DNA of 64,000 bases, from contig NW_026570473.1 in assembly GCF_019649055.1 (NCBI RefSeq), positions 1 to 64,000 on the forward strand, written 5' to 3'. Origin of the DNA: Paramacrobiotus metropolitanus (taxonomy: Eukaryota; Tardigrada; Eutardigrada; Parachela; Macrobiotidae). Both the position numbers and the translations under genes were made by a program. Below the pieces are notes generated by a model. It saw nothing but the letters and a program-made list of their open reading frames with translations. It had not been told where the DNA came from and did no database searches. The stretch's first letter is position 1. The number at the start of each line of letters is the position of its first letter. This document shows positions 11,411 through 62,404 of this stretch, one piece after another.

Positions 11411-11481
11411 GCAGCCGGTGTAGATCAGTGGTAAGACGGACGCTACAGACGCAGCTGGCACGGGTTCGAGTCCCGTCATCG
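11411..11481 (+). tRNA. tRNA-like sequence (probably degenerate or SINE-related)
   Basis: 71 nt. Acceptor arms GCCGGTG/CATCGGC pair fully (one G-U), and the T arm ACGGG-TTCGAGT-CCCGT is perfect. A-box-like (TAGATCAGTGGTAAG) and B-box (GGTTCGAGTCC) promoters are present, and a T-run follows. D-arm and anticodon stems pair poorly and no anticodon can be read with confidence. It is therefore a decayed tRNA gene or the head of a tRNA-derived element. Neighbours give no help. Confidence 0.55.
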
Positions 11482-41140: not shown

Positions 41141-41669
41141 TTGCAACGGTATGTTGAGAAATAATTGCTTGTAGTTGTCTTCATTTAGCATGGCGAATTT
41201 AACTCGCTTGGGAGCGAGTTTGAATTCAGACCTCCCGCCCAAGCGAGATGCGAATAAACTTTGTTGTATTCCCTTTTTCGAGCAGTTCGAAGGTTAAAAT
41301 ATTGTGTTTACTACATAGGCCTGGCCGCCTCTCCAAAGTAGAGACCAGAGCAGACGTTACCTTGTCGCTATTCGCTACTTTACCGGTGCTGGCGGTGCAG
41401 GGTGTACGTACGATAAGGCGCTGGCTGTTTGTGTGCCTGTCAGACATACTATAACTGCCATTAATTTTAACAGGCAGTTGGGCACAAGTCCGCACAGCTG
41501 ATATCTTTGCTAAATTCTTGCTACTACAAATTCATGGTTTACGGGATTTGGCCCGGTACAATCTTACTGCCTGCTGAAGCTCTCCTATATACGTAGCTAC
41601 GAGTAGATCGCTTAAAACGTGGGATTTGCCTAATATGACATGAGTTGCGTCAAATACCGTTTAGTGCGG

Positions 41670-41972
41670 TTCACAACGTAGCTGAGCACAATTCCATTAT
41701 CAGCTCCAGTGGGTCGTGAGGATCCTTGTGAGTTACCGCCCATCCGTAGTACGCCAGCTCATTTCGGTGTCGTAGGGTTGTCAATTTATTAAGCCGGGTC
41801 CGGATATCTTCCTTATTTTCTTCCGTTAGCGGAGCGTTGACTAACTGCTTGACCGCGACTGGAAAACTGCAAGGAAACAACCAGACTTCACGATCCGGTC
41901 TTTATAAACGACACCAAATGAGCCCTTTTCTAGAATACTCGTACAGCTGTCTACTTCATATGTAAATGAGTC
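41670..41972 (-). pseudogene. N-lobe remnant of the tail-anchored kinase
   Basis: On the minus strand from about 41972: a short start, then ILEKGSFGVVYKDRIVKSG (glycine loop). A frame change follows, then VAVKQLVNAPLTEENKED, TRLNKLTTLRHRNELAYYGW and LELIMELCSATL. This matches the kinase at 19523 (RLNRLTTLRHRNVLEYYRYE, LEMIMEWCNGTL). At the family's intron site the donor GTACGTTG has become CTACGTTG and a stop follows; the C-lobe is missing. Confidence 0.75.
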
Positions 41973-42884
41973 CATTCTAAGCCCTGTGCTGCCCGTTCCA
42001 AGAAACAAAGTCAGAAGTGGAAACTAAACGTTCATAATGCCGTAATCGAAAATTGAAAGCAAGGGTTCTACGTTTGTTGCATGTGGAACGAGTAGGCGGT
42101 AAGCGCCAACGGTTATTTGCAGGTCCATGCATGAGAAAACTTAAAGCGCACAGTGCTACCGTACCAATTATCAGTTTCGGCTTAGTCATGAATACAGTTA
42201 TTGCATACCTTATTTCAGTATTCTGTCATGAATACATATTCTATGGTTATAGCTCATTGCATCAGCTGTTCGTGCTAGAACATTTAAAGCTTTCGATGAC
42301 TCACATCTGATACGATAATCATAAGCGGTGATACTGGGTGAGCGAACAAACTGGCTTTCTTCGCTTCCGGTTTGTCTATCGCGAACCACCTATCGTATGA
42401 TGCCTCGTATCGCATCGTATACAGTTTAAACTCATTCAAAAGACACTTTCATTAGCTACTAAACAACAGCAAAACCATTTAATTTGCAAAAATTAAACAT
42501 TCTTCGTAAGCAATAGTGCCGATCGAAAATTGTGCCGCGGATTATTCGCATTTTTTTTTAAAAATAACATTTATAATTTTTTGTTCATGAGGCTGCAACA
42601 AAAGATTTGGCTAGTGACACTGATACTTCTACCAGCTGCGTATCGCCAGTGATTTTTTATCGCGATAAGCTATCAGGGCAAGTGATCTTAGGGATAAGAG
42701 AATGAATGCATGGTAGTATGTACGGCATTATCCACTCTATCGACATTTGCCAGCCGATCTATGGTACGTTAGTGATTAGTATATAAGACAGGCATGATCG
42801 TTCGGCAATGTAAAGCGCAGATTATTATTAATATTGTCATTTGCGCGTGTTCTCGAGTTTCTTTTGTGCCAGTAACGCTAAAAA
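41973..42884. other. Intergenic
   Basis: No gene seen. Some TATCG/CGATA-rich sequence near 42300-42430 and 42640-42660. Confidence 0.4.
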
Positions 42885-44144
42885 ATGTTTAAGATGGTCC
42901 AAGGTGCTATTGGTGTCGGAAAAATGCTGTTTTTCTCCGTGTTTACTGCCGGATTTCTTCGATATCCCAACGTCAACGCGCTCGTTGCGGTAAGAGTATT
43001 AGGATTTTAGCCTTTTTCTTGTGCGGTGCTATCGTTCTCCTTCAGTTAAGCGGTAGCAGTGCACTGACCGATTACTGCTTCAGGATAAACCGGCATCCTG
43101 TGACGATATTTCCGGGAAATGGTATAATCAACTTAACTCCGAAGTGGAATTCCGACACGGGAATGGTTTTCAGCTGCACGGAACGTACGGCTCATACGTC
43201 AATACCGCACAAACTCATGGAAATTCTTCCAGTGCAGGTATCTTAGTCCGCGTAATAAATTTTCCAGGAGTTGATGTCACTGCGCAAGGCCTTGAACAAT
43301 GTTATGTTGCAGATGCGACTCGAGGACGACTGATCGGCTTTATCAAGGATACCGCCCTAGGCTTCACAGTTGTGTGGGTAAAGTGTAACATCGGTCCAAA
43401 ATAATGCGCTAAATAACCTTACGAATCACGGCTCACGGATGGAATAACCTTCAAAAATCTTTTTTGATGTTGGCAGGACACATCAAGCACGATGACTTCA
43501 TATACCGGAAATTGTAAGATATTTTGCCGAATAATATTAATTTGTATATGATGTTGCAGATGTTGTGTAGCGCTTTCTCAATATACAATATACAATTTTT
43601 CTACATTGTATGATAATACTGTGATGGAAGTAAACGTTTTGCATTTGACACATACTGCGCAAACCAGCTCTTCCCAAAAGCTTTTGAACTCAGTGCCATG
43701 GCGCATTGCATGTATTCCTCTTCAAGACCGTTTGTTGTTGATTTTATTGTTGGATTTCTCATTTCATTTCATTTCATTTCTCATTTTATTGTTGGATTTC
43801 TGCACCGCCTACCGACTAGCCGATTTCTATTTTCCTACTTCCACATTGTACTAGCAGCCCATATTATAATACATGCAAACTGTAGCACGTACCGAAAAAT
43901 TATTTTACTTCTGTTTTTTTAAGGCTACGTGGACCATGAACGCGGTACTGTACAGATCAGAGCCGCGTGGCACTTGGTGGAGCGGCAAGATTCCCTCGCC
44001 GATTCATGGAAGGGTGTCCGGTGAGCACGATTTACTGAACATTCGGCATTTGGTACTTTTACACACACTCTTCAGGTTTCTATTGTTTTTCGTAGATCGG
44101 GACAGGCTGTGTTCACCCGACAGAGACAACAAGCATGCTTTTAA
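42885..44144 (+). CDS. Secreted avidin-like biotin-binding protein, six exons
   Basis: Exons 42885-42989, 43084-43237, 43313-43377, 43477-43513, 43924-44020 and 44096-44144 give 168 residues with consistent phases. The first exon encodes a signal peptide (MLFFSVFTAGFLR core). The mature part follows the avidin beta-barrel: DISGKWYNQLNSEV (strand 1, Asn and Ser ligands), LHGTYGSYV (Tyr, Ser), ALGFTVVW, SSTMTSYTGNCYVD (Thr, aromatic, the GNC/GQC turn), IRAAWHLVERQDSLADSWK (both tryptophans) and SGQAVFTR at the end. Nearly every biotin-contact position of avidin/streptavidin has the same or a similar residue, so biotin binding is likely. The Asn of the last strand appears as Gln. A sister gene with the same exon plan lies at 55324-56393. 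Role could be nutrient sequestration or egg/immune defence. Confidence 0.88.
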
Positions 44145-44823
44145 ACTAAGCAACATTGTATCACCGCGAACGTCAAGGTCACGAATATGAATATCGAACA
44201 TATTTGGTGACACTGACAGAAGAATCACCAGAAAGACCCCAACCTGCCGTTTGCTAGCCAGAGCTTTTAGTGCTGGGTGTTTTGGGTCTCCTTACATAAT
44301 AAGAAATGTGGTTGATGGGTACGGTAAATAAAATTTAAACACTCGTAATTTCCGCCTGTATGCGGCTGCACATGCTGCTGATAATTCTGGCCATATTGGA
44401 AGATTTAATCGCTGTCTCGTGCATTATGCTATGCTATACTACGTACAGTATAATATGGGTTTACTGTGTACTAATTAACCACACAAAGACAGTAAAATAT
44501 CATACGCATCTGTGTGAGTCAGTGTGAATCTTATCACAGAGGGAAGATAACCGTGCCAATTCATAATCCCCGCATAAGGGCTGCATGTTTATATACGTCT
44601 TACCGTCCCGTTTGTTTGTTTGTTTGTTTAATCAGCTTAACGTCTACAACAATCAGGTAAGAACCTGCACGAGGTTGCAGACAAACGCTCAAGATCAGCT
44701 GTCACAAAAAAATGACAGCCCCTTTCAAAAAGTCTTCGAGCTACCGTAATCACAATGCACAGCACACAAAGTTATTTCAGCATGTAACATAAAAAACAAA
44801 TGATATCACAACAGTCAACAAGA
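44145..44823. other. Intergenic
   Basis: No gene; contains a short TTTG simple repeat near 44610-44630. Confidence 0.4.
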
Positions 44824-45790
44824 TCAATCAGTATACCCATTCTCGCACGAAAACGTTGGAGGGCCAAAGTTCAGGTCGTAGGATTTTATCAGCATCATCT
44901 TTGAATATTCCAGTCCGGTTCCAGTCGCAGTGCGCTTGTCTCCACGCGGGGGAACAAAAACGCTTACGAATTTGGTAGAAATTCCTTCGCTGTTCAACTG
45001 ATTGGCAATGAAATCGTTGTACGCTTTCACACTGGTGAAATTTGAATTTTCAAGGCGAGGAATACCTCTCACGCAAAAATCAGCATGTGGTTTTCGCTTA
45101 CACTGGAAGGTCTTGCTCAATTCATTGCGAGGTTCCACGTCAGCACCGTTGTAGACCTGACATCCACGAATTGATTTTGGCAACCGCTTAGTAGCAACGA
45201 CATGTGCATACGAAGCATGGGTTGACGGAGATGACACAGGCGAAGGGTTCGATCGGGTTTCACTGCCAGCTGGCATAAACTCAGGACATTTCATCGCACC
45301 AAGCCGCGGCACGTTAACTTTTCGAGGTTTCCACAGTGCCCCCTTTTTCTCCATCGTCTTCCTCTTCTCGTCCAGAAGTTCCCAATTTCCCGGAGCGTAT
45401 CCGAAGTTTTCCTCAACAACACGCGCAACAAGAGGGTCCGAGATCACATCATCACTGTCGTATCCCCGCGCAGGGGTCTCACCGCCAGTGGCGAGTCCAC
45501 ATTCTATCACGAAAACTCGATCACATAGTTCTTGCACTCCGTTCTTCAATTCAGCGATATCAAGAGACGACAAAAGGTTCTCCTTAGGGAGGCTCCACGA
45601 CAGGACTTGGCAAGGCTGTGAATGGAGTGGCTTTCAGCTGGTTCTTGATGGCCACATTTTCTACAGTCAGTTCTTCGATCTTCGATTCCAGGCACTTTAC
45701 ATGGTTAACAAATTTCTTAAGTTCGGGTATAAATTTTTCCCAATTAACTTTTGAGCCAGAAAAGTCAAAAGAAAAGTTGCAATCAGTCAT
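44824..45790 (-). pseudogene. Coiled-coil protein, frameshifted, unrecognised
   Basis: The first frame starts at an ATG (45790): MTDCNFSFDFSGSKVNWEKF, then a Leu/Glu/Lys heptad region (KKFVNHVKCLESKIEELTVE), and stops after PSPVVEPP near 45595. The next frame begins in the overlap (SLPKENLLSSLDIAELKNGV) and continues to the stop at 44824, with a basic, Pro/Ser-rich middle and the C-terminal block FVPPRGDKRTATGTGLEYSK. A one-base shift separates them, so this is a decayed gene, a programmed frameshift or an assembly error. The layout (coiled coil then basic region) recalls ORF1/Gag-type proteins of retroelements, but no reverse transcriptase lies nearby. Confidence 0.5.
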
Positions 45791-45934
45791 GTTTCCAAAA
45801 TATATCAAAATATTCCAAAAGGTGAAAAACGTGTTGGCCCGGTCACTCCCGAGGTGTAAAATTTCAAGCCCTGAAAGATCCGGGGTTTTATAAAATGCGC
45901 ATTTGTAACCGGCAAAAACGTCCGGCAGATTCAT

Positions 45935-46528
45935 CCGTCCGGACGGTTTTGCAGGTTACATGCGTTCAGGACACCACAATATGGAAGAACACCTCAGGCT
46001 GTCGTACAAAACCTAGAAGATACGCTTGTACGTATCTGTCGTTAAATATTTGCTTTGCGTCTACTGGCGATGATAACAGTAAAGTGTAAAATCAGGTGAT
46101 GGCAATGCTAATGGTAAGGCAAAGAAGTTCAGCCTAGGAACTGCTAAATCGACTTCGAAGATTCGATCCAGGAGTTGATGGAGATGTTTTAGCTGTTTGC
46201 ATTTACTGTTTAATTATCGCAATGCTCTGCGAATCTCGATTCAATAGGCCGATGATATTAGGGTGATTGAAAGCCTTCTTTCTGACGTTGATTTTCTGAT
46301 AATTCCTCTTTTATCTGTAGTATGACCAGTCTGTACCACTTGAGATATCGGATTTCTTCTAAAAGAACTGATCCCCTATGCTTGTGAATGAACTAAATTT
46401 TTTGCATTAATATCTGTGGCTGCACTGAAATAAACAGACATGTTTGCACTTTAACTAAACAACTTGCTTAGAATTTCCAGACACGAAAATCCAAATGAAC
46501 ATTCTGCAGATTATGTCACTTAACAAAA
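45935..46528. other. Intergenic
   Basis: Downstream of the mosaic protease-like gene; no gene or strong repeat seen. Confidence 0.4.
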
Positions 46529-49500
46529 CTATTCGGCTGTGGTCATTTGGTTCATGGTCAGATAAGGACCGATTACATCGCTGATCCATTGCCGGTGCTG
46601 GTAGATGTCGGTGTACACCGAGGGGGCCATCCAGAGAGAATCACACACCGGCTGGAAACTGCGGATCCCCACCACTTCCCATAACTGCTCGGCATTCCGG
46701 CAAATTACCGGCGCGCCATCCACTCGACCCTGCGCCACAGATTCTTCCGTTATTGCGATGCTGTTTTATCAGATATGTTATTGGTCTACACTTACGCGGA
46801 AGTTTTCTTAACTAATTTTTACCATGCAGGGACTCCTGTGCGTGGTATTGCGGAAACCGCCACACACCATCGAGTCGGTGATCAATCCGTTGTAATTGCC
46901 AGCTTGATTGCACTGCTCCGTCGATATCAGCGGAGTCTTCCAGAAATAAAGTTGCCCTTCCGGCCGTTTAGTCATCCGCGTGCCCGGAATTTCCGTTCCT
47001 ACAAAACAAATGAAGCACAGTGACGGAATGCATCAGCAATGAAATGCTAATTCATTTTCGCCATAAAAGGAAATTGATCGGATTGTGTAAAACACTTGTT
47101 CGGTCGAAAGAATAAATGCAGCACAAAGATCGTGGACAAATATTATGTCTTCAGCATTGCTTTCGATGCGCTTTTATAAGATACGAATGCAAAAAGCAGG
47201 CGGCGTGTATTCCGTGTTTTTTTACAGGCAAAATTGGGCATCAAAATTCGTGCTGGACTTAAGTTTCCGGTTAAATAAAACAACTTTTGAAAAAAGTCGC
47301 TGCTAACTGATACAGCTGCAACACTCGCATGCTGCTGATGCTTGCTGCAACACTCGCATATTGATCGGCCGCAAAGACTTTGATCACCTTCGAAGTTCGA
47401 ATTACTTGCAAAACTTGAGTGCGTCAACATACTTGAGTGCAAGTATCCATAGGATACACACGACGCGTTCAGCGCTACCGAACTCCTCGGCATCCACACA
47501 GCCGCATTTTTCCCCAGATTGGAGCCTATTATTAAGCTTTCCACGGCTTCCACCAACACCAGATCGTGCTTGGAAAAATAGATATTAAACTTAACATTCG
47601 GATGGGGAACAAACCGTCGAATCATATGGAAGGAGCTCCGATCCATGGAGCTGGGGTCGGTGAATAGCGCCCAATCCCCCGGCGATATCATGGGGTCACT
47701 AAACAATCGTACAGTTACAAAACCGGCAGCGTTCTTATGCATAGGTAAATTATAAGCAGCAACTCACGCTTGAGAGACGCATTCGTAGGATGTAAGAATC
47801 CAGCGCGAGTTCAACAGAACGCCGATGCACTTTTCCAGGTCACCTTTTAAATACATTAGCACGACAATTTGGCGGTGCTCGTTAGGCGCGGTTCTGTATG
47901 CTACAGAAGGATCGAGGTTCGTCAGATCGAACTGCCGATTGCCTCGTGCTGAAACAGCCAATATTAATTTCGGCATTGAAACGTGCTGTACTGCCTTTCT
48001 ATGGATATCGTCATGCATTATTTAAAGTCCAGCTACATGCAAGCCATGTTTTTTATACCATCAGGACACTGCAGTGTGAATGGCGCTGGTGACGTCGTCG
48101 TGTCCGGTACGAGCATCGTGGCCACGGTCTTGTTGAGCGCCACACCGGTGATGTTTCCGACAACATTGAACAGCACCGCGGCAAATCCTGCTGCTGTACT
48201 TTTCGACAGTCCAACCGGTCTCCGCATGATAAAATTATACGAAGCATTTCCGTTCTCCGCCGACACCTCCTCCAGACCAAAATGCACCGGCGTTATTGAT
48301 GCCACGGTCGTCGGGACAGTCGTCGCAGCGGTGTACTGGTAGTCGGCAGCTCATGGGCGGTCGTATTGACTGCAGTATGGGATTCAAACGAAAAGGGTTC
48401 CTTGTAGGCATAGAATACCGATTCATTGGTGCGCGCCACAGTGGACAGCGCCGGTCCGATGAGATCCCGCATCCAGTCGACGGCGTAGGTCAGATTGGCA
48501 AAGACCAGGGGTTTGGGGCTGAAGTTGCCGCATTTGTGCTGGTAGCTGAGGAAGCCGCGGATTTCCCATGCACCCAGTGTGCTTTGGCAGATCATCGGCG
48601 ACACGGCGTCCTCCTGCAAAAAGCATTGTACATTATATTATGTACTTTGTATTACGCCAAAAGCAAAACGTATGTCGCCATTTTGTGGTAAATATATCCC
48701 GAATCTAGTCATACTCTGAGACAAACTAATTGAATTTGCTTTGCGACAAAGCATCCGTCTCTGCAGCGGTATTTTGCATTCCTCTCACACTCTGGATTTC
48801 TGTTGATATTTCCGTAAGGGAAATTTGATAGTGTTACTATCTGTACTGTTTGTCAGACGACTTACGTCACACACAGACAGCGAGCTCCGCCAGCACTCCA
48901 TACTTCCGCTGACCAGTCCGACAAAATTCCGCCTCGAATTACAATCGATATCGGCCGCGCGCTGCAGCTGTGATGCCACCACGGTACTGTTATCGTAAAG
49001 CTTCACCAGTTTGCACAAGGACGGAATAGCACTGGACGGCAAACAAATGGGAACCAAGTTGGCCGGGACTACGCTAGCCAGTTTCAACAGAGTAAAATCG
49101 TAATTATGCAGCATGCGCACAGTCAGATGGTTAGGATGGAAAAACACCGCGCTCACGCTGGTGTGGAAAGAGTTGGCATAAAAGGTCAATTTTATTGTGC
49201 TGGCCGGTCTAAAATAATGAACACAAAAATCAGCTGCCAGACAAGCTTTACAGATAATTCTGCTCCATGTATAACGTAAAGTATTATTTAAAGAAATAAA
49301 ATTTCTAACGCATATGTTTTGTGGAGGTGATAAAGAAGTTTTAGTACCTATTTTGCAAACAGCTGGCCGACGTCAGAATCCAGATTGGTGCCACCAGGTA
49401 TCCATTGCACACCGTGAATGCATCACCGTCGAACATAATCTTCACAATAGCCGACTGCAATTTGAGCTGATTGCCGACACCGGGATCACTGGCGATTTGG

Positions 49501-51975
49501 CACCGGAGCCTCTCGCATGTAATTCCGGCTCGGGAAGTGGGATCGGAGCAGGTGTCAGGTGAGGAGATGAGAAGCTGCTGCAGCACGGGCAGCGTCGCAT
49601 TGAAGTCCGGTTTCATCGAGAAAGTGTTGCCGGTTTCGGTGGCTGGAGCGGGAAGAGCGAACACTGCCACGGCCGGTCTAATGCAAACATTAGGAAATTC
49701 TGATACAGAAACTGGTAGTTTTAGAACGGCGGTGTCTACGGGAAACTTTAGGAGCCTCGATTTTCTCTTAGATGTAATAAAAACCAATTTGTTTGGTATC
49801 AAAATTCTTATAATTTTTTTCTTATTCTTTTGAGAGATCGCTTGATGGTTTTCGTTAAGAAATGTGCAAGTTCCAAGTGACTGAGTTTAGCATGTGAGTC
49901 TACGCGCAATGGACATGACCGACTTATTTTGGTCTGCTGCTGGTCTTGCCGTTAAAATATCGGTCCTCGGACCGATTGTCTAGTGTAACCACATTTATGG
50001 AGTCCACTGTACGATAATAACTGCTTCAGCTCTATATTTTTCGTTTGATCATTTAGTTGATATTATTAAACACTAACTCAAGTTGGCAAATCGCCGAAGA
50101 GGATGATTTGTCATCGACCTTTTACCCTGTATGTTCTTAACATAGTACATAACACAGTATATATGTACATCACCGAATCGGACACAATCAAGCTTCCTTA
50201 ATTCAAACGCGTAATTATTTAAAATGGATGATGTTCTGCTTAGTAATTAGCTGCTCAAAGTACGCAACGACAAGAGTAGCAACTTCAGTTAAGTATTACA
50301 GGATGTTGGTTAACTTCAGTGTGAGTTTACCGGTATCCAAGTTGTTGGCAAATTTTATTAGCCGCTCGAAGATTCCATCCGTGGGTGCAGAGAGTGTGCC
50401 ATTCGGTATCCAGCATTCGTGCCTGCACTAATCCAGAGTATTGTAGCTGGAAGCAGTCTTTTTCATCGCTGTATCCATCAGGGCAGTCCGCCACTCCGTT
50501 GCAGCGCAATCTGTACCATGGTAGACATATCGATTGTTAAAACAACTCACCAAAAATTTAGCGTATGGTGTGTAGGCTCGTTTTACAACTGATGTTTGGA
50601 AAATGTGTTATGTACCTCGCATCAATGCAACCGCCACCACCTTTACAAGAAAACTTTCCGGCATCGCACTGACAGTTAATTTCGTCCTCATGACTGAGAC
50701 AGTCAATTCGTCCATTGCACCTAGCGCAACATCAACTGCATCAGAAACACATCAATGTTTTATTTCTCTGTTTGTGTTAATCAAACCAACACCCAAAATG
50801 TTTTTTGATTGGGTTATAAGGCTCTGGTCCACCTGGAGGTGATCGAGCTTCCATGCACAAACAAAATTCCAGTTGACAACAGATTCCTTACCTCCAGTGC
50901 AGTGGAATACACCGTAGGCTCTGATGGCAGGTAAATTGATTGGGACTAGTACAAGTGTTATCCGTTTCAATGCAGTTTAACTCGTCAACTGGCAAGCCCA
51001 TGACAAAGCAGTCGCCTACTCCATCACAGCGGTTATCGTTTTCCAGACAGTATCCCGTAACACATTTGAACATTCCCGCCGCGTGGCAGACGCTTTGTGA
51101 ACAGTCGCGCTCATCGGATCCATCGCTGCAGTCTTCTACACCATCGCACTGTACAAGACATAGATTTAATGCGTAATGCATACACAATAAACTTTTCAAT
51201 TTTTTTGGAAGAAAATCTCAGCGCTCCCAACACGCAGGTAAAAGACTGAAATTTTATAAGATGTCATTTTATTTTACAATTACAGTATTTCATTTTGTAA
51301 TTTATTATTAAAATTTTAAAATTATGATTTCTATTTAAATTTTATTTTATAATGATTGAATAGAAGATTTATACATCATTGCATTACACAATGAGGCCAT
51401 CAAAATGCCATTGCGACTGACCACAAGCCCAGAGGGAACACATGCTCCTGACCAGCAGCGGAAGTTGGGAAGGCAGTCGGTGCAGTTGGCCTCATCGGAG
51501 CCATCCTGGCACTCCTGCACACCGTTGCATACCACCAAGTGCGGCACACAACGGTTCTCCTTTCGGCAAAGAAATTCGTCACTGTAACAGTGCGCAACGG
51601 CTCTGATGACAGAAGCAGGTGGCGGAATAGCTGACACACTCGGCAATATGTTAGGAACGGCTGTGTTCACCGTTAATAATGGCTGGGATGCTACCGTACT
51701 AGCAAAAGTCATTGTCGAGTTATCTGTAACGGCGGGGACAGTTTCCGCAGCGGCAGTTGCGGAAATCCTTAATACCTGAAAGCCGTATTTACATACAAAG
51801 GTGAAAATAAGACAGTCTTACTGCAGTTTGAAGCTGTGCCGCAACCGTGGAAAAAATTAACTTCAACACCCATTCTGGACTGGCGAAACAACGGAGCAAC
51901 ACTTAAGTTTTTACATGGAAAAATTTTGTTGGCAGATACCTGGGCAAGAATGGCAACGACGTAATAGTAGGCCAT
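46529..51975 (-). CDS. Secreted LDLa-SRCR-trypsin mosaic protein with two inactive protease domains
   Basis: Thirteen exons (51975-51940, 51775-51422, 51148-50892, 50720-50616, 50510-50331, 49677-49348, 49208-48866, 48613-48419, 48335-48059, 47948-47768, 47698-47433, 46998-46823, 46729-46529) join in phase to 966 residues. Order: signal peptide (MAYYYVVAILAQ), Thr/Ser/Val-rich stretch, five LDLa modules (for example CNGVQECQDGSDEANC), an SRCR module (WHTLCTHGWNLRAANKICQQ), then two trypsin folds in tandem. In the first, the His site reads ILTSASC, Asp is kept in NYDFTLLKL, and the Ser site is EDAVSPMIC. In the second they read ILTSYEC, KHDLVLVEA and GRVDGAPVIC. Catalytic His and Ser are lost twice, so no proteolysis is expected. 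It resembles matriptase/corin-type proteins in module order but is soluble, and may be a binding or decoy protein. Confidence 0.82.
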
Positions 51976-52098
51976 GGCAAATGGATTCACTTTGTATACT
52001 GCAAAAAAGGATTAGTTAGTTCTTTAATGGTCTCTAGCGTTTACTCAGTATTTTACAATCGTTGTATTTTTCTCCGTATTAATGTACATGCAACTTAC

Positions 52099-52305
52099 GT
52101 CCTCTTCTGCCACATACGTGTAGTCGAAATGATTTTGGTATCGGTGCTTTAATGCATCAGTAACACTAGGATATTCGGGTGGGACATCTGGATCACGTAG
52201 AAATATGAATAGGGAAGAAAATGCTGTTTGAACATCTCGGTTAAGCGAACCAAGGTATGCAGTCGGGTCGAGATTTATTGCATCATCATTAATTTTTTTT
52301 ATCAT
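52099..52305 (-). other. Possible upstream exon, unassigned
   Basis: A minus-strand frame (VTDALKHRYQNHFDYTYVAE) ending at a strong GTAAGT donor. The exon at 51998 begins after a strong acceptor (CCTTTTTTGCAG), so an upstream exon of the mosaic gene must exist. The reading phase does not match, so this may be 5' UTR or belong elsewhere. Confidence 0.3.
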
Positions 52306-52536
52306 TTAAGAAATCAAGGATATGATAAATAGAAAACCTGTAAACGACCGATGACCGTTCTTGGCAATGGCCCTTACTAATCCAGTACTCCTATACTGCC
52401 GAAGAAGTTTGCGCCGAAGAAGTTACCTATACTGTCGAAGAAGTTTGCGCTTTGAAATAACGCAGTTGAGAAGTAAACCGGTAAACAATTGAATACACGG
52501 AACTGGTTTGCCTTTTAATCGTTTTTATACGAAACA

Positions 52537-53908
52537 ATGAGCCAGTACGCGCCGCTTGATATTGTGCTGCAGGATCAAACGTGGCAGTCCTTGGTAAGCT
52601 CGACAGTTCTTTGGTAATTCTTAATAAATGTCTTTGTTGGCAGACTTGCTATACTGTTTTAGCTGGAGGACCTGTGCTGGCATTGTCGTTGCAACCGGTT
52701 TTGGCGTATTTCTAAACATTATGCTCGTAACTATTCGAATAGCACTTAACTCCATTGCTACTAACCATGGCACGACGTTATGCGTATGCTTTCACTTTGT
52801 TATTTTCTTATTTTAATAACCGTAGTAATTCCGGCTGTTTGGAGGCCGCAAGCAACCAGAGGAGGAGGAAGTTTTTTTTTGGGGGGAATTCAGCGCATCG
52901 TAAACTTTGCCGGCAATTTCGACTGGATTTTCATTGTCATGGATTGTGCTACCTATATCCTACAAATCTACAACATGAAAGACATCAGGTGCGTAATGCC
53001 CTGACCCTGAATATTCTTATCTGCTTAAATACACATGCATAGGCAACGGTGTGGAATTGATGTTGAACAAATTTGATAACTGGTCAACGCGAATGGATAA
53101 CCATGTGTCGCGATTTGAACTTAATAAAATAAACGGTATAAACCATGTGTTACAATTGCATTATGGAATGGAACCTCCCCATATCGTTCCTCCGGAATCC
53201 CTGAGAACCCTCGAAGCACCGGATCGGATTTATAAGGTAATCGAATCGTTTCGGAATAGGGAACGAAATGTGGTGAGCAGTTATGGCCCCCGTAGATCTC
53301 ATAACAGAAGTCGATACCGTCATTCCTATTTAGACCGCAACCGCATTTATGAAACTGATACGTTTAATTCCGACAAGGTTCTGAACTTCTGGATGTGTGT
53401 TAGAAACGGTGTCCTTTTGGGAATTGCCAAAAAGTCTTAACGGATTCGCCTAGTATACGGTACGCCATACGAACAATCTTGTGCTATGCGACAACAATGG
53501 ACCCATCCCTTTCCAATGCGAAGGCTTCACTTTGGACAATGAGACATTCGTCATGCTGACGAGGACAAATTCGCCTTCCTTTCGTGTTGGTGATCTGATT
53601 TTGCAAATCAATGAAAAGAAGCGTATTACAAACAGTAAGTACCTGTACGCTGCAGTTTAATGGGAATTTTGGATTCAGTAAGAAAATGGAAATTGGCGAT
53701 TTCATTGTTTCCTTTATCTATGCATTTAGCAGAGACTTTAGGAGATTTTCATTACCCAGGCCCTCGTCTAAAAAGTCGTCTTACTGAAAGCACCACCGAA
53801 AGAACGTTGAAAATTCAGTACATACACAAGATCGGATCTGACATGGAAACGGGGCACTTTCTTGATTCTCTAACGCACCCACACAAGAATTCATGCGTTT
53901 TAAATTAA
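52537..53908 (+). CDS. PDZ-like domain protein, multi-exon, partial model
   Basis: Candidate start at 52537 (MSQYAPLDIVLQDQTWQSL) with a GTAAGC donor after 52593. A block near 52800-52988 reads NFAGNFDWIFIVMDCATYIL, ending at GTGCGT. A third block (53045-53400) reads NKFDNWSTRMDNHVSRFELN and PPHIVPPESLRTLEAPDRI. The best exon, 53454-53634 (TAG acceptor, GTAAGT donor), encodes FTLDNETFVMLTRTNS and FRVGDLILQINEKKRITN, a PDZ-type carboxylate loop and beta-C segment. It joins in phase to 53730-53908, which ends at a stop. The early exons contain hydrophobic segments, and not all phases could be reconciled. It is divergent from the mosaic gene with a short shared upstream region. Confidence 0.45.
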
Positions 53909-55323
53909 TATTGACTTACAGTAGCTTATGCAGTGCTTCCTGTACAAAGTAACTGGGTATAAAAATCCAAAGAATTTGTTCTTAACTGTAATAGCACTAG
54001 TGGTACTCTTATTAGCACATTATTGTGCATAAACGCATTACAGGCCTATAGTCGGAATGAACGTGGCTGACTTCTAACTTCCAAGTATCTATAAATAATA
54101 CGGTCAAAAACAAAATTGTGGTGGAAGGTTTTATAAGACACACTGAGAGCATTCAGTACACCAGTGAAGAATAACAGTGTCATGTTATTCATAATTTAAT
54201 ATTGAGCTCTGATGTTTAAGCGCTCATCGCAGTAAAAGTATGTTCACTTATCTGACTCTGGTGAGTGACTAGTCTTGGTAGAACTTCTAGTACAAGAAAG
54301 TTATAAAGTGGTGACGTTAATTTATTACTGCTAATGTTATGTCATCTGATTTGTAAACACAGCTTTATTACGGTTTATGCCATATAGATAATTCATGATA
54401 AACGCTCACTCAGTGACTAGTTTTGCTTTCGCCTGGAACTAGTTATAAAGTCATAAAGTGGGGACGCAAATTTATTACTGCTACTGTCATCAACTTAGTT
54501 GCCGGTTACGAATTATCAAGGAGGAAATGACGAACCGACGAACCATTGCCTTGTTGCATTATCTTAATTAGTATTCTCTTTCTGCCGATGGGTGAGCTCG
54601 GATCGTAAATTCCGAATAAAATATGCGCGTTGCAAAGACTGCTTATGGCACTTGTTTTCCATGAAAATAACGAACGCTGACAAAGCTCTATAAGCGATAA
54701 TTACTAGTACTATTCTAGTTACAGTCTCTTTTAATAATACCTTTTATTACTACCTCATATGAGTCATAGCTATTGATACCCGAGAAAGCGGAACAATGCC
54801 GGAAAAGGTTGGCTGCAGAGTAAAAGATAGTGCCAAAATGTATTACACGTAGGGAAAGGTAGTGCGAAAGGTTTTTTATCTCTGTTGCATGAGTCGCGCA
54901 ATTATATATTTTAATGTATAATAATGCTATAAGAATATTAAACAGTGCAGAGTACAGAAAGCAGGGCTTTTTTTGCAATTACTAGACTAAGGGTAATGCG
55001 CCTATGGAATTTGGTGGCATATTAGAACGATCGCGTCCATGTTGTATCAGTAGCACGAGGCCGGCCGGCGCTGTCGGGTAAACACGTCCTGGCCCGATCT
55101 ATAAAAATTAAAAAATATATCTTGATCGAAAGCAGCTACATACAAACAGCCAGAAATGCGAGATTATGAGCATACAGTCATATTCTCGAGAAGCGCTAGC
55201 CTAACACAAGGAACGCAAACGTTTTTAATTCGGCTACTGCTCAGTTCTTTCGCACTGTCTAGACTACGTTCCCGTGCTCTTCCGCAATAGGGATATCGTT
55301 CTGCATCCTTAAAAGTAACTTAC
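53909..55323. other. Intergenic and unresolved last exon of the second avidin gene
   Basis: The final exon of the minus-strand avidin-like gene should lie in 55140-55320 but was not fixed; one candidate follows CCTTGTGTTAG near 55207. The rest has no gene. Two similar blocks (GTGACGTTAATTTATTACTG at about 54311 and GGGGACGCAAATTTATTACTG at about 54461) form a diverged direct repeat. Confidence 0.4.
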
Positions 55324-56393
55324 AGTACACCCTTCCATGAATCAGCGAGGGAATCCTGCTTTCGCACCAAGTGCCATGAGGTCTTGATCACCACCAGATT
55401 TCGTTCGCTGTCAACGTAACCTTAAACCAAATAACATCGTCGACACTACACGTATCAACGTTATTTTTGTATCATTATCAAAAGTAATAAAATATTAAAA
55501 TATTAGAAGTAATACTTCAGCATAAATAATTCTGCAATTTGAGCACAATCTTACAGTTTCCAGCCCAGGCGGTAATGGCGCCACTGTTATCCTGCCAAAT
55601 CAAAAGCAGCCATGTTAGCGAAGATGTTAACAGAGTTAACCGTACTACCCTAGTACTCGCTGTACCCAGTTCACGGTGAAAGCCAGAGTGGCATTCTTCA
55701 AGTAACCGACCAGCGGTCCAGTGGACGGCGCTGCAAGCAAACCGTTAATTTCATCGTGGGTTTATTTGTGCAACACTGTTGTTGAATCCCGAGTACCTGC
55801 GTTGGAAGAATTGGCCTGGCTCTGTGCGGTATTGACGTACGACGCGTAGTCTCCATGGATCAGCCGCCCGTTGCCGTGGCGGAGCACCACTTCCGAATTG
55901 AGCTGGTTGTACCAGAGACCGGAAATATCGTCGCATGTTACCGGAGCGTCCTAGAAAAATCCTCCTTCAATCAGCCTCGCTGCACATAACAAACAGCGTG
56001 TATGTCGTACTAAAAAAATTAGATGTCGGCGATTTGGTTGGCGGTTAAAAAACTTGATGATAAAGTATGGATATAATATGTAGGAACATATCCAGTACGT
56101 ATAAGTCATGATAAGTGTAATTTGTAAATGTCTCGTAGACTGAGCTTTGGGTCCGGTAATGAGCTTTGGGTCCGAAGCTCGAACAGAAAAGCGCTGGTTT
56201 GCGCAGTACGCCTTAAGGCAAGGCTTTCTTCGTTCTTTAGTCCTATGTCTTCTCCAGATTACTTCCGACGTCTTACCACACGGCTTCGCAGCGAATTATC
56301 GGCGGGGTTGGGTACCAATTTGGCATTGCTGCTGGTGGCCATCAGCATCACCATGGCGCAGAATATCAAAGCTGCATACACAATTTTCGACAT
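55324..56393 (-). CDS. Second secreted avidin-like protein, five of six exons
   Basis: Exons on the minus strand: 56393-56277, 55950-55797, 55730-55666, 55591-55555 and 55420-55324. The middle four have exactly the lengths of the first avidin gene (154, 65, 37, 97 nt) and the same phases. The signal peptide is MSKIVYAALIFCAMVMLMAT, followed by an Arg-ending propeptide-like stretch. The mature part reads DISGLWYNQLNSEVVLRHGN, IHGDYASYV, LAFTVNW, ITAWAGNCYVD and IKTSWHLVRKQDSLADSWKG, keeping the Asn, Ser, Tyr, Thr and Trp ligands of avidin. The aromatic before the GNC turn is Trp here, as in streptavidin. The last exon (C-terminal strand) is not resolved, so either it diverged or the gene is truncated. 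Confidence 0.82.
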
Positions 56394-58099
56394 TATTGCC
56401 GAGTTAACTTGTAGCGGAGAAGCAACTGTTTCAGATAATGGGCTGCAGTGAATTACTTGCCTACTCAAAAAAGCAGATAAATCGAACAGCACTGCCAGTA
56501 AAAGCTTGTCATGGGGTTTTTATATGCCACTGGGAGCGTTTACTTTTGCAGTGCACTGAATGCAGTATGTCATAATATTATTATGGTTCATGGTGTCATC
56601 GCATTCGCAGTATGCTAATCTATCTGCGTGACTACCATTTTCGCTGGAATCTGCAGCGGATGGTATTCAGTTTTGATGTCATTTGACTCAGTGTTGATGC
56701 CAATATTCTGTGTAAAATGCGATTTATTTACCAGGTTTGCGCTATCGAAAACGGAAATGATGAAACATAGCCCAACCTTTGTATTCTCTAGTCGCTTTCA
56801 AGCGCTTGACTTGAGAATTTCGCAAACTAGATGCGCGTGCCGCGCTACAAAGACCGTTTCTTGGACTTGTTTTTTCCATGGAAATGACGACGTTGTTGAC
56901 AAACTATGTAATCGATAAAGTACAGAATACAGATCTGTACTGATGCCGCGTTCGAAGCGCATGGATGTTAAGTACAGTACTATCACAAAAACCTTTTTTG
57001 CCATACATACTGCAACCGGAAAAGATTAGTGCGTTATCCGAATGAGCGATGATTTTCCTTTTCTACAATCATTGCGGCACGTACTATGCAGCATTCCGCT
57101 TCGGACTGGAATCAATCATTAAGACAACTAGGTCAGCCGTAAGTAATACAGACATCACTGGCGCTTAGTAATGTATTTTTGCGTATCAGATTTTTGGTTT
57201 ACAGGAATATGATAACATTATGTGCATATTTACATATGTATCCTTCCCTCAACCACATACGTATTTTTGAACCGTAACGGCTTCGTTCTTTTTTCAGACA
57301 CATCTGCACTTTATATCATTTTGCAGCACACGACAGAGACATCTTGTTTATGCGAGCTTCAAACATGATGGGATGTAGGTATATAGCTGACCTGCAATGT
57401 AGGACTAAATGGCATCGGTATGCAGTGCACTTGTACGCGGATATTTCGAACAGTCGAACAGTGCATTGCACTGAATGTGGATATGTTGGGTATGCGACCA
57501 TTTCGTCCTACATTGTACATGGTACTACAGACTACAGAGCGGTGACAATATCAAGGTATTAAAAATATGGCGCGGTATTGAAAATAACAGTTTCTCATAA
57601 ACTGAAAGTCGTGTACCGCGAAAGAACACTTGATATCACGAAACTATTGCTAATATTAGATTCTCTTATTATTGCTCGCATAATACGTATTTATCGCTTC
57701 GCATAATACGTATTTATCGTATTTTTCCATTCTTCTGTTATGTTATAATGTGGCGTACGTAAATGTTAAACCAGCATTATTCATGTTTTATCTTTGTCTG
57801 AGTTTGTCCCATAATCGTCGTTAATCTCGAGCTATTAAAACAGATAATATTTAGTTTGTATTTCTTTTTCCTTGTTATTGCATCGAACGCTGCGTTGTAT
57901 CGAAAGTTTTGTTCGCTTTGCAATAAATAAATATTGCATTCCGACTACAATACGGAAAAAAACTACACATCATTCGCACCGATACTGCAGAGGCGGGAGA
58001 CAAAACTATGATTTAAATTCATGATTCAAGCAATATTTATTCTACGCGAGTATAATCCCCATAAAAACAGAAACATGAATTTCTTATTGTGTGTCTGAT
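56394..58099. other. Intergenic
   Basis: No gene supported. A short direct duplication (GAGCTTTGGGTCCG) lies at 56141-56175, and GCATAATACGTATTTATCG is duplicated at 57679-57720. Confidence 0.4.
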
Positions 58100-58708
58100 C
58101 TACCCGGCAGAATACGTGGCCGCGTAATTCCATTTGACCAGCACGACACTCCCCCTGGCCACCACCTTGACCTTCTCGGAATCAAACCTTGGATCCACCC
58201 GCATCCCGGCCTGCTCCAACCCCAACTCTATCTCATCCTTCTCACCCAATCCCGCCGCTAGTTTATTGCTGACGTCGATCACCGCCACAGTCTTCCCGTA
58301 GCGGTAATCATGGGAGCGACGGTGGTAGCCGTTGACCTCCACCCGCATCTGCAGGTCCTTGGAAGGTATCCGGGTCCGCACCATCTTGATGGCCTCCTCC
58401 ACGCCCCGACTCATGGCGCCACCGTCGCTCTGGAAGAAGGAGATCGGGTGCAGGCCGGTGTAGAAGTTATCACGGACGGGTGTTTCGGGGTCGTTGCTGC
58501 AGTGGATGTCCACGGTTATTTTGGTCGGGTGGTCTGGGTTGACGGCGGTGTAGTTGCAGTATGGATTCAGTTGAGCGGCGTGAACAGTGGGTGCACTGGA
58601 TTCGGTGGTAGTGGTGCGGCGTTGTTTAGCGGCATCCACAGCGCGCCAGGACAGGAATAGGACGGTGGCAAAGAGAACATTAAAGAACTGCCGATTTAGA
58701 GGTAACAT
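58100..58708 (-). CDS. Secreted protein of unknown function
   Basis: Single-exon frame of 202 residues from the ATG at 58708; the frame runs four codons further upstream but without an ATG. The N-terminus is a signal peptide (FFNVLFATVLFLSWRAVDAA), followed by a Thr/Ser-rich linker (QRRTTTTESSAPTV) and a mixed alpha/beta region (the stretches YCNYTAVNPDHPTKITVDIH and GKTVAVIDVSNKLAAG). Only two cysteines in the mature part, so at most one disulphide. GC-rich third positions mark it as truly coding against its AT-rich surroundings. I do not recognise the family. Confidence 0.7.
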   Translation of the reverse strand: MLPLNRQFFNVLFATVLFLSWRAVDAAKQRRTTTTESSAPTVHAAQLNPYCNYTAVNPDHPTKITVDIHCSNDPETPVRDNFYTGLHPISFFQSDGGAMSRGVEEAIKMVRTRIPSKDLQMRVEVNGYHRRSHDYRYGKTVAVIDVSNKLAAGLGEKDEIELGLEQAGMRVDPRFDSEKVKVVARGSVVLVKWNYAATYSAG

Positions 58709-60492
58709 GTTGTTTAGCAAAACCGTTTAACAAAACTAGTAATCAGTTAATATTTTAAAGCACTGTAAATAATATTAGCAATGCTATAACACTATTTAAG
58801 CACACTAAGCGGCATACATCAGGATAATATTCGTTACAATATTGTTATGCATAATGTATTACCTGCATTTGCTGCACGTAGCTGCATGTAGGCATTTTTC
58901 ACTATTTCCCTTCAATGTGGAGCTAGGTACAGATACTTGTATACAGCAACATGCTTGTTAAATTATGAGAATCGTTGAGGCCTTTATCTGAACCCAAGAT
59001 CACCGCGATAACTGATCGACGATAGAATCGACTTTCCTGCAAGTTTATTACACAATACATTCTGTATTTCAAAATTCAGTCGAATCGTTGTCAGCTCATT
59101 CAGTAAAAAGTACAGTGATACTTTTCGATAAAATGCAGGCATGGTTCCAGGTCTCCATTGATTTTGTAATTTATGTCGGAGTGTATTTTATGTAAGAAAG
59201 CTGCACCCCGGGGCACCGCCGCACCGGTGTTTATTTCGGGGGTACGGGTGAGGGCGGAGCAATAATTTATTTACTTCAAACAATTAACTGGACAGTAACA
59301 ACCATACAAGCAGTGCAATGTGCATAATAAATTCTATGGAGCCGCGCAGTTTTAAAGCGACTGCAAACTGCAATGACCACTTTAGCGATATTGACCTTTG
59401 CGACAGCCTTATGTAGGTTAAATCCGGCCGATAATGTGTTAGAAAAAGTCCGAGTCACCACTAATATTTCGTTCGGCGCCAATCGCCTTTGCAGCTGGGC
59501 ATTCCCACCGCTTTCCCCATACCCACTACTGCGGTCACACCAGGAAACGTGCCAGTCCGAATGATGCACGCAGTGCAAAGGCGGCTCGGCGTGTTCACAA
59601 ATGCAGCCAAGTGCAATGCTGCATTGCACAAAGGCTGCTTCGTGAAGTACTTAGTATATGAGAGCGTGATGATAGTTTGCAGAATGTGCAAAAGTTTGCA
59701 AAAGGTCGCATTTTCCGCGCGCAGATGGTTTTCACGCTAATATACATGTATATAAAATATAAAAATCATTTGGCTACAGAATACGATAAAATAATTCAAA
59801 GTAGTAGTAATAATTCAAAATAATGTTTGGTAGTGCTCGAAGCGCAATTTTCTTGAACATGCACACGAATTTGGCTCCATGTACCGGCACACTTTCCTTA
59901 ACACAATAATGCGCATTATTCATTCACATTCGTTTCATTACAATACGTAGTACTACATTGTACGTAGCCATGTCCAAAGTTTGTAACCGGTGCGCTACAG
60001 AAACAACCCAACAGTCACGCATGGTTTGGTATAATCGTATCATGAATTTATAGAAGTCTTGCATTGTTAATGTCGATACACTGGATACAATAAACAGACG
60101 TGCTCGGACATGAACCACCAAAAATATTTTTCTGTGCAGCAGTACAGCTAACAGACATCCTGAATGCGACAAGTGAGTAATCATGCGGATGGCATGTTTA
60201 ATAGTTTTTGCAATCTGCACGTATAATGGAAAAGCGCTCAACTCATACGGAATAAACACCGAGGATTATCAGTAGCTTCAGTACACTGGTTTATAAGAGT
60301 GATTAGCAGACATGCAAGAATCTACACTGTTGCATGCACCACACTACCGGTACGCCCAGTCTCCGCAAGATATAAGATACATTATAGCAATGCCAGAAGA
60401 ATAAGGATTATTTCTCAAACGCATAGTCTGGATAGAAACACTTTTAATCGATTGATTCAGTTTACCGCTCAACGAACTAGTGAAAACCGACA
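58709..60492. other. Intergenic
   Basis: No gene supported; short overlapping frames at 59276-59740 lack splice context. A CCCCGGGGCACCGCCGCACC patch at about 59205 is locally GC-rich. Confidence 0.4.
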
Positions 60493-62404
60493 ATGTACAG
60501 CGGGACCCGCGCAACCAACAGTGTTGATGTTTTGTCTGACGACGGCCGGCTCTGTTATGGACGTGTGGTGGACGTAACGGACAAGGGACTCTTCATCGAC
60601 TTCCTTATGCCCAGTCGACGCCGTGAATTCACCCCCTTTGAACGCTTATTCCACTGCCATGCTCAACTGCCTCTGGATGCCGACCGGATGGGCCCTCTTT
60701 ACGGTGAACCGCTGTCCTCCATTCACCTGGAAGTGTTGGGTCGGGAAAGTCCTTCCGGTGTGTGGATGTGGTTTCCCGCCCGGGCGGCCCATCTGTCGGA
60801 CGGTACGCAACACAATGCTTACGGCGTGGCCGTGGTAACATGGTGGAACGAAAGAGAGTACACGGATATTGTTCCTCTTGACCGGACACGGTGGAGGGTT
60901 GCGAGCGACTGGTGGGCGCAGCACGGCCAACCGCCAGTGGCTTTCACCAGCGGTACTGACGACATCTCGCGATTTCTGGCTACTTGGCCCGCGAACGTTA
61001 AGAAGAGCACATTTACCAAGAGTTTCATTCCGATACCGATAAACTGTTGCTCCATACCTGGGGAAGAACTGCTGAAGCGCATTAACAGTACATCTCCAGT
61101 GCCGTTTGTGGAGGTTGCCAGTGGAAAGTTGTGGTACATTCAGCTGAGAGAATTCTGTACGGCGGTAAGAATTCATTGATTACGTACGTGCGGTGGTTTT
61201 CCAGCTTTGGGATATGTATCGAGAAAATCGTTTTTGCAGAATCCGGATTTGCCGGTATTACAAGAGGAGTTTCTGATGTCTGTTCCACGCATTGTTGGGG
61301 AGCTGGTAGCTTCATCGACTAACTGCGACAACACGAAACCGTTTCTTGAACTACCGTCTAAGGTATGGAAGGAAGTGTTTTCTTGTCTGGGAACTGGTCT
61401 GCAAAACACGCTACGCGGTGTCTGCTTTACGTGGAACGACATTCTGAATTCGACATCTTTAACAGACAACATCATTATTAATAGTGCGGAATTCGAGGCA
61501 ACAAAGTCGGACCGGTTCGTTTACTACATGACGTCACCCATTTACAAACGTCTTCGTTCGTCTACGCAACGCATTGTGTGTGATGCGTCCCGGCTGACGG
61601 AAGAGACTGATGTACTTAAGCTGCTAGATATGATACAATATGTTGCAAGGCAGAACGCCAGTGTTCGACTGTCAGGTTTGTATTTGTTGGGGTTTCAATG
61701 GCGATTCCAGATTGGTTCGGGCCATTCTTCGCATCATGACACGTGCGAACTGCATCAAGCTGGAAGTTAGCAGCCACGTCAGAGTATGCTACCGGTAATT
61801 TCTGCTGTTTCCGGCTGGGCTATTTTGTCGCGTCGCTCCGGCGAGTTCCATGTGAATTCATCCGGTTTCTCAGCTGTACCGTAAATCTGGACTATGTGTT
61901 TTTCGGCACCCATCCACGACCCAGAACGATAGATTTGTCAGTTGTCAGCCGAATCAACACGCCCCGCATGCAGGTCATGCGGCCTTAGCGGTGCCGTGTG
62001 GGATGCGTTGGAAGCTGGTTTGTCGCAGAGCAGCTTCGACCAGCCAGTAAAAGTATCTGGGTGGTTGGGAATGATCACAAAACTGGCAGGAAACGGCGCT
62101 GATTACTATGGCAAAGATATGTGCAAGGTGGTTCAAAGCAACGTTTTTTTTTAAATGGTAATTCGGCGCCAGCATTTTATGTCCTTTTAACATGACGTTT
62201 GGTTTGTAGATTTTGTGTGCAGTGCAGACCGCTGATCCACGGACGTCCTCACATTATCCCGGGAAGAAATGGTGCGTTGACGGCCTGAGCGAGCTGCAGT
62301 GGGAAAAACTGTCACGTCTAACGCTGGGTTTCATCCAAGAAATGGCCGACGATTACGCCAAGGCACGTGTCCCGGACGTCAATGGAGGTCCGCATTTAGA
62401 CTGA
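60493..62404 (+). CDS. F-box protein with novel N-terminal domain
   Basis: Exon 1, 60493-61164 (224 codons, phase 0, GTAAGA donor), has a compact N-terminal domain beginning VDVLSDDGRLCYGRVVDVTD, with paired strands and a Trp-rich part (VAVVTWWNEREYTDIVPLDR). Exon 2 starts at 61240 (TTTTTGCAG) and holds an F-box: LELPSKVWKEVFSCLGTGLQ, LRGVCFTWNDIL. F-box proteins present substrates to SCF ubiquitin ligases via Skp1. Around 61690 the homologous-looking continuation changes frame (LYLLGF to NGDSRLVRAILRIMTRANCI), implying a one-base indel. Later exons: about 61990-62137 (VWDALEAGLSQSSFDQPVKV) and 62223-62404 (LSELQWEKLSRLTLGFIQEM, stop). The region after the F-box is Leu-rich but no clear repeat is seen. 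Confidence 0.68.

Follow-up and report, generated by a model that had tools for sequence, protein, structure and literature searches.

Avidin genes sharing a six-exon architecture in the tardigrade Paramacrobiotus metropolitanus, with one likely biotin binder among them

Avidin is a vitamin-binding protein known from egg white and as streptavidin. Two genes of this family, called A and B here, lie on opposite strands of a 64,000-nucleotide stretch (the window), which corresponds to positions 1 to 64,000 of contig NW_026570473.1 (C253, 92,317 bases) in the assembly of the tardigrade Paramacrobiotus metropolitanus (GCF_019649055.1; 169.8 Mb in 533 contigs). Gene A occupies positions 42,885-44,144 of the plus strand and gene B positions 56,393-55,047 of the minus strand; each consists of six exons, of 105/154/65/37/97/49 nt and 117/154/65/37/97/52 nt, respectively, and the spliced proteins are 168 and 173 residues long. 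All ten introns, five per gene, follow the GT..AG rule, and the phases computed from the exon lengths are 0,1,0,1,2 in A and in B. A first-pass annotation of this DNA had described two secreted avidin-fold proteins on opposite strands, sharing intron phases and four internal exon lengths (154, 65, 37, and 97 nt). Splicing and the Pfam results given below bear this out, secretion being predicted from leaders judged by eye. The same annotation had placed the genes about 12 kb apart, whereas the measured gap is 10.9 kb (44,145-55,046) and the outer span 13.5 kb. Exon 6 of gene B is found 225 nt past exon 5. A TATA-like box is present at -105 from the start codon of A and at -131 in the case of B (TATAAAA) and of its relative B' (see below), and a poly(A)-like signal, which is a common motif and was counted without a control, occurs within 400 nt downstream of all five avidin copies of the genome.

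A and B are almost certainly true avidin-family genes of a tardigrade. Both proteins match the Avidin family of Pfam (PF01382), a search that the first-pass annotation had proposed, significantly and over positions 2-116 of the 116-position profile, with 71.8 bits (8.1e-20) for A and 84.9 bits (6.9e-24) for B, the cut-off being 24; no Pfam domain other than Avidin was found in either of them. A profile built from 11 non-tardigrade avidins gives 68-76 bits to the five tardigrade models (69-74 for A', B', and C), while the best of 1,000 shuffled sequences (200 per protein) reaches 10.3 bits. In the PDB, the tardigrade avidins match chicken avidin, xenavidin, zebavidin, and streptavidin, and B scores 52.5 bits with chicken avidin (1avd), 54.6 with xenavidin, and 42.3 with streptavidin (1mk5). 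An exon-by-exon Pfam search of the genome returned no avidin match, but this search is blind to introns, and the exons were found by protein searches. The mature A and B proteins are 63% identical. At the DNA level their exons are 51-71% identical, with the minimum in exons 3 and 4; this comparison has no shuffle control, so the protein match is taken as evidence. The introns differ in length (e.g., 94 nt in A and 326 nt in B for intron 1) and are not more similar than shuffled sequences (five per intron). A chance match of exon lengths was rejected on the basis of the Pfam scores, the shuffles, and the same junctions in five copies, and bacterial contamination on the basis of the introns, of the size of the contigs carrying avidin genes (92 kb, 1.04 Mb, and 1.29 Mb), and of tardigrade primer sites in the assembly. 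These sites belong to the two primers published for cloning TPS-TPP-2 of Paramacrobiotus sp. TYO (PMC8277472, in part): their gene-specific parts each have a single exact match, at C84:81,675-81,693 and C84:85,328-85,345, correctly ordered and 3.7 kb apart, with 0 matches for the reversed controls, which identifies the genome as that of Paramacrobiotus sp. TYO. The species with the 170-Mb genome is named P. metropolitanus in a later paper (PMC11191345, in part), and we read both names as referring to one strain.

The genome holds five intact avidin genes. Two whole-genome protein searches (16 and 11 matches, E <=10) detected avidin exons at just three further gene places, namely A' and B' on contig C31 and a divergent paralogue, C, on contig C49 (Table 1); these searches score the best candidates only, and very divergent extra copies may remain. 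The models of A', B', and C were drawn by hand after A and B, with usable GT and AG at every homologous site, phases 0,1,0,1,2, and no internal stop, and an alternative donor is possible a few codons downstream in exon 2 of C. A' retains an open exon 1 of the same 105-nt length as that of A. The lengths of exons 2-5 in C and in A differ by multiples of three, as would be expected of an old gene structure. The same five splice positions are usable in all five copies and, since these include C on another contig, the architecture predates the A/B split: it is a family trait and not the mark of a local inverted duplication. The first-pass annotation, which had also suggested looking for further copies, took the identical exons to imply such an inverted duplication. 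The paralogy that it proposed is supported, but the implication is weakened by an architecture common to all copies, including the one on C49, and in trees A and B are nearest sisters with a support of only 72/78 or 48/40.

Table 1. Coordinates of the avidin genes, their exons, and the duplicated block (positions in the window unless a contig is given)
Feature	Coordinates	Strand	Content
Gene A exon 1	42885..42989	+	Start codon, hydrophobic leader (signal peptide judged by eye); donor GTAAGAGT; phase 0
Gene A exon 2, 154 nt	43084..43237	+	First Cys, GKWYNQLNS strand 1 motif, Y/S/V biotin contacts
Gene A exon 3, 65 nt	43313..43377	+	GFTVVW, Trp70-equivalent
Gene A exon 4, 37 nt	43477..43513	+	STMTSYTGN; Tyr versus Phe79 of avidin and Trp of streptavidin
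Gene A exon 5, 97 nt	43924..44020	+	Trp97- and Trp110-equivalents; second Cys codon split over exon 4/5 junction
Gene A exon 6, 49 nt	44096..44144	+	SGQAVFTR, Ala at Asn118/Asp128 position; stop codon
Gene B exon 1	56277..56393	-	Start codon at 56393, hydrophobic leader (signal peptide judged by eye)
Gene B exon 2, 154 nt	55797..55950	-	First Cys, GLWYNQLNS, DYASYV contacts
Gene B exon 3, 65 nt	55666..55730	-	AFTVNW, Trp70-equivalent
Gene B exon 4, 37 nt	55555..55591	-	AITAWAGN, Trp as in streptavidin
Gene B exon 5, 97 nt	55324..55420	-	Trp97- and Trp110-equivalents; second Cys codon split over exon 4/5 junction
Gene B exon 6, 52 nt	55047..55098	-	SGQDVFTR, Asp as in streptavidin; stop codon
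Gene A'	C31:757.2-758.4 kb	+	Exons 105/154/65/37/97/49 nt
Gene B'	C31:771.3-769.95 kb	-	Exons 117/154/65/37/97/52 nt
Gene C	C49:992.19-993.73 kb	+	Exons 93/166/68/40/91/52 nt
20.6-kb block	41575..62141	.	Colinear with C31:756,419-777,121; carries both avidin genes and intervening DNA

The mature coding sequence is under purifying selection. Amino-acid-changing (dN) and silent (dS) rates, estimated for the mature part with NG86, are 0.022 and 0.243 for A/A' (0.029 and 0.166 with YN00) and 0.007 and 0.053 for B/B', and gene A is not decaying. The corresponding values for A/B (0.275 and 1.617) and A'/B' (0.263 and 1.483) are both saturated. Unlike the mature part, the leader exon of A has amino-acid-changing and silent rates that are about equal.

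Biotin contacts, taken from a list in PMC3811995, were compared by aligning A, B, and C with chicken avidin, xenavidin, and streptavidin. At the eleven positions of the ring shell (avidin N12, L14, S16, Y33, T35, V37, T77, F79, W97, W110, and N118), B reads N L S Y S V T W W W D, which is identical to streptavidin and equals chicken avidin at 8 positions, A reads N L S Y S V T Y W W A, and C reads N H S F S V T Y W W D. Letters seen in chicken avidin, xenavidin, or streptavidin are found at all 11 positions in B, 9 in A, and 8 in C. In A, Tyr takes the place of Phe79, and Ala that of Asn118/Asp128; A' shares both changes, so that an assembly error behind these odd letters is unlikely. Trp is kept at the Trp70 and Trp110 positions of A, B, and C, i.e., the loss of the fibropellin type is not seen. 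At the end of the pocket holding the valerate, letters found in at least one of the three references occupy 4 of 8 positions in A, 5 in B, and 6 in C, and the conserved Ser75 is missing in all three, being replaced by Thr in A and Gln in C, and by Ala in B. The statement of the first-pass annotation that almost all biotin contacts are kept is therefore accurate for the ring shell of B; it does not hold for Tyr79 and Ala118 of A, nor for the valerate end, which is different in both proteins. Streptavidin deprived of the Asp128 side chain binds about a thousandfold more weakly, without binding being abolished, and A may thus still bind biotin.

The C4 and C83 residues of avidin are joined by a disulphide, and both have counterparts in all five tardigrade copies: Cys stands at the C83 column in A, B, C, and both vertebrate sequences, but not in streptavidin, and the N-terminal partner is present in 5 of 5 copies. 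As Xanthomonas and Burkholderia avidins also have the Cys pair, it is no mark of animal descent. A third Cys is found near the C-terminus of A (44096-44144) and B (55047-55098), and is absent in C; it would possibly form an inter-chain cross-link.

The overall explanation that we favor with good confidence is that these genes encode true avidins, B being a secreted biotin binder and A and C being weaker or retuned. Each gene is predicted to yield a hydrophobic leader followed by a single avidin barrel, with one internal disulphide and assembly into dimers or tetramers. B, whose leader suggests that it is secreted, would grip the biotin ring through Asn-Leu-Ser, Tyr-Ser-Val, Thr-Trp, Trp, and Asp, together with a Trp from a neighboring subunit, presumably tightly, and judging from its pocket letters it is highly likely to bind biotin. 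Biotin binding by A and C is probably weaker, or these two proteins bind something else. For A, whose pocket is altered yet still selected, binding clearly weaker than that of B seems the better guess, while another ligand or a role in assembly would also fit A and C. A different arrangement, in which an old avidin family comprises one streptavidin-grade binder and two paralogues whose pockets were rebuilt for another ligand or for mixed oligomers with B, is rather improbable. In the least supported step, B would starve microbes or feeders of biotin, either in a secreted fluid or around the egg. Such a role in defense or egg protection through biotin sequestration, as proposed for vertebrate, lancelet, and fungal avidins, could equally well be right or wrong. 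Fungal tamavidin 1 brings populations of fungivorous nematodes below 4% of the control, with biotin sequestration as the presumed mechanism (PMC6238071, in part), and expression of lancelet avidins responds to bacteria (PMC8033661, in part).

Several observations weigh against this explanation or narrow it. Avidin-null zebrafish develop normally and survive S. agalactiae infection as the wild type does (PMC13425791, in part), and this knockout result weakens the general defense reading. B has Ala in place of Ser75 and departs from chicken avidin at 5 of the 8 positions of the valerate shell, and it matches fewer valerate positions than C, which speaks against placing C clearly below B; in zebavidin, an unusual valerate end goes with a looser hold on biotin (PMC3811995, in part). 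Exon 1 appears without constraint, with dN of 0.211 and dS of 0.249 between A and A' (42885-42989 versus L013:4220-4324), and dN of 0.028 and dS of 0.019 between the leader exons of B and B', which show three differences in total. Selection estimates cover A, A', B, and B', C being too distant for a synonymous estimate, and no TATA-like box was found within 200 nt upstream of A' or C. Alternatively, the genes could encode structural avidins that do not bind biotin and whose fold holds egg-coat or matrix proteins, as in fibropellin, with binding incidental or lost in at least A and C. This would agree with the ring-shell contacts lost in A (Tyr79 and Ala118, both shared by A') and in C (His14, Phe33, and Tyr79), and with the C-terminal Cys of A and B, which could cross-link chains. 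Sea urchin fibropellin, an invertebrate protein whose avidin-like domain has lost biotin binding (PMC8033661, in part), is a possible parallel to A and C. This domain is C-terminal in a protein with up to 21 EGF-like domains (PMC10336842, in part) and carries Arg and Lys in place of Trp70 and Trp110 (PMC8033661, in part); the comparison is by published description. However, these two Trp, whose replacement on the fibropellin template virtually abolishes binding (PMC8033661, in part), are kept in A, B, and C, every ring contact is kept in B, and Avidin is the only domain that Pfam finds in A or B, which makes the structural alternative unlikely.

Regarding origin, a tree of 15 avidins groups the five tardigrade copies in one clade (99/98). 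The best tree joins them with vertebrate avidins, with modest support (76/75, or 82/81 once zebavidin is added), but a tardigrade and Streptomyces clade is not rejected, whether in the first tree (p-AU 0.279), with zebavidin added (0.179), or with two long branches dropped (0.184), nor is a vertebrate and Streptomyces clade (p 0.246 in the first tree and 0.2 with zebavidin). When the two long branches are dropped, the best tree turns to vertebrate and Streptomyces (80/79), while tardigrade and vertebrate is not rejected (p-AU 0.369). These trees, of about 140 columns, do not allow a choice between animal inheritance and transfer from streptavidin-type bacteria. They include 3 of 14 Streptomyces loci (L016, L023, and L029) and L037 from the plasmid search, with L031 (a near copy of L030) and L034 (broken frame) omitted; from the PDB (166, 127, and 167 matched), segments of chicken avidin, xenavidin, zebavidin, streptavidin, and 3szh, which we take to be shwanavidin of Shewanella, were used. 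Descent from Xanthomonas/Burkholderia-type avidins was rejected in a single test, the clade with the tardigrade copies having a p-AU of 0.019.

Horizontal transfer of a streptavidin-type bacterial gene into a tardigrade ancestor, followed by intron gain and duplication, is a possibility that we hold to be somewhat doubtful. In addition to the Streptomyces clade that the trees tolerate, it draws on the ring shell of B, which equals that of streptavidin at 11 of 11 positions versus 8 for chicken avidin, and on the report of a transferred gene, TPS-TPP, in tardigrades (PMC8277472, in part). The introns mostly lie off the estimated vertebrate positions, which goes in the same direction. The tardigrade genes, with six exons and five introns, are built differently from vertebrate avidin genes, in which there are four and three, respectively (PMC1082904 and PMC3811995, both in part). 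The zebavidin exons of 87/211/120/42 sum to 460, which is not a multiple of 3, so that exact phases cannot be set; provided that the crystallized chain extends to the natural C-terminus, the last two introns are estimated to lie close to avidin codons 74/75 and 114/115 (PMC3811995, in part). By this estimate, tardigrade introns 2, 3, and 4 have no vertebrate counterpart, while intron 5 (phase 2) falls in the codon aligned to avidin 114, close to the vertebrate intron near codon 115; one intron in five near a vertebrate one does not settle descent. On the other hand, two of the three trees place the tardigrade copies with vertebrates, B has higher bit scores with chicken avidin and xenavidin than with streptavidin, and the Cys pair of animal avidins is missing in streptavidin, although Xanthomonas and Burkholderia avidins possess it. 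The tardigrade proteins resemble chicken avidin, xenavidin, and zebavidin in having a predicted single barrel with a leader, the ring-contact residues, the Cys at the C83 column, and a G-x-D/N-x-F near the end, B being 31% identical to chicken avidin and 31% to xenavidin, and they differ from animal avidins in their valerate-end contacts and in the extra C-terminal Cys of A and B. Streptavidin (Streptomyces avidinii) has the WYNQL.S of strand 1 in common with B and is 33% identical to it; its gene is bacterial and devoid of introns, and the protein has a different loop after strand 3.

Bacterial avidins were also found in a tblastn search with B, in which 86 of 72,556 plasmid records match (47 from Xanthomonas, 37 from Burkholderia, and 2 from Streptomyces), the Xanthomonas proteins among the matches listed being 32-34% identical to B. 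One avidin gene, on a Xanthomonas vesicatoria plasmid (L034:301-703), is broken by a frame change, with intact homologues in L030 and L031, and another, on a Burkholderia glumae plasmid (L035), has a type I polyketide synthase on one side and an MFS transporter on the other, a setting that suggests some connection to a secreted natural product. Streptomyces avidinii has two avidin genes (L016 and L023) about 36 kb apart on one contig. A tardigrade-profile search of genome and viral collections gave 14 and 16 pattern matches, none of them confirmed, and a search for avidins in the phylum of genome G001 found one in 1 of 396 genomes, the query's own.

Both avidin genes of the window, with the DNA between them, belong to the 20.6-kb block that is repeated on C31 (Table 1). 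Identity is 79.7% in the main aligned piece around gene A and 91.5%, 98.0%, 95.9%, and 93.1% in the others, and past the ends of the block (C253 to 74,000; C31:743,001-783,000) no homology was found besides two short repeat matches. These data are compatible with a segmental duplication and equally with a second haplotype that has undergone strong rearrangement. Since A pairs with A' and B with B' in the tree, the A/B duplication is older than the event behind A' and B', be it duplication or haplotype split, and it is old, with a saturated synonymous divergence of about 1.6. That A' and B' are the other haplotype left in the assembly, which would bring the true haploid count to three genes (A, B, and C), falls slightly short of an even chance. 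The colinearity over 20.6 kb and an assembly that was diploid-aware and later merged (PMC8277472, in part) would be in line with this, but the sequences on either side of the block are unrelated over the range compared, positions 500 to about 5,690 have no match outside C253 among the best 40 of 1,293 candidates, and synonymous divergence is uneven, 0.24 in A versus 0.05 in B.

No title on a tardigrade avidin appeared among the papers listed by searches of the open-access literature, most subscription papers being outside the scope of these searches. The word avidin is absent from the main text of the P. metropolitanus transcriptome paper (PMC11191345), and the word tardigrade from a fish-avidin paper (PMC13425791) and a bacterial-avidin paper (PMC8033661), and one paper that lists IPR005468 names it in yeast. 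Automatic annotations of the five genes may well exist because the assembly was gene-called. Tardigrade avidins add an ecdysozoan phylum to the family, and whether animal avidins form one inherited line or result from several transfers becomes testable; if the family was inherited rather than transferred, avidin would be an ancient animal protein that has persisted in one or more ecdysozoan lines. With the ring shell complete in one protein and altered in two others, this natural set also offers comparison material for avidin engineering, and the symptom-free avidin knockout in zebrafish indicates that the biological role of avidin is still unsettled (PMC13425791, in part).

Other features were noted within the block and the window. 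A 1.24-kb stretch 3' of gene A (44612-45853) is absent from the colinear C31 block and looks like a mobile-element insertion; it contains a minus-strand open reading frame (ORF) of 249 aa (44824-45573) that has no Pfam match. Conversely, C31 has extra stretches of about 0.56-0.58 kb at 49717, 52241-52244, and 54024-54027, where the aligned pieces overlap by 1-4 bases, and these may be short mobile elements of a single family, flanked by small target duplications. Between the avidin genes, Pfam detects LDL-receptor class A repeats (PF00057) in ORFs of the minus strand (46500-52300), along with a single weak piece of trypsin type (18.2 bits versus a cut-off of 20.6). Trypsins carry AAHC at the catalytic His motif, and SYEC (47764-48018) and SASC (49341-49802) stand at this place, so at least two protease-like domains in this interval may lack the catalytic His. 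Finally, a tRNA gene (Rfam RF00005, 37.3 bits) lies on the plus strand at 11414-11484.

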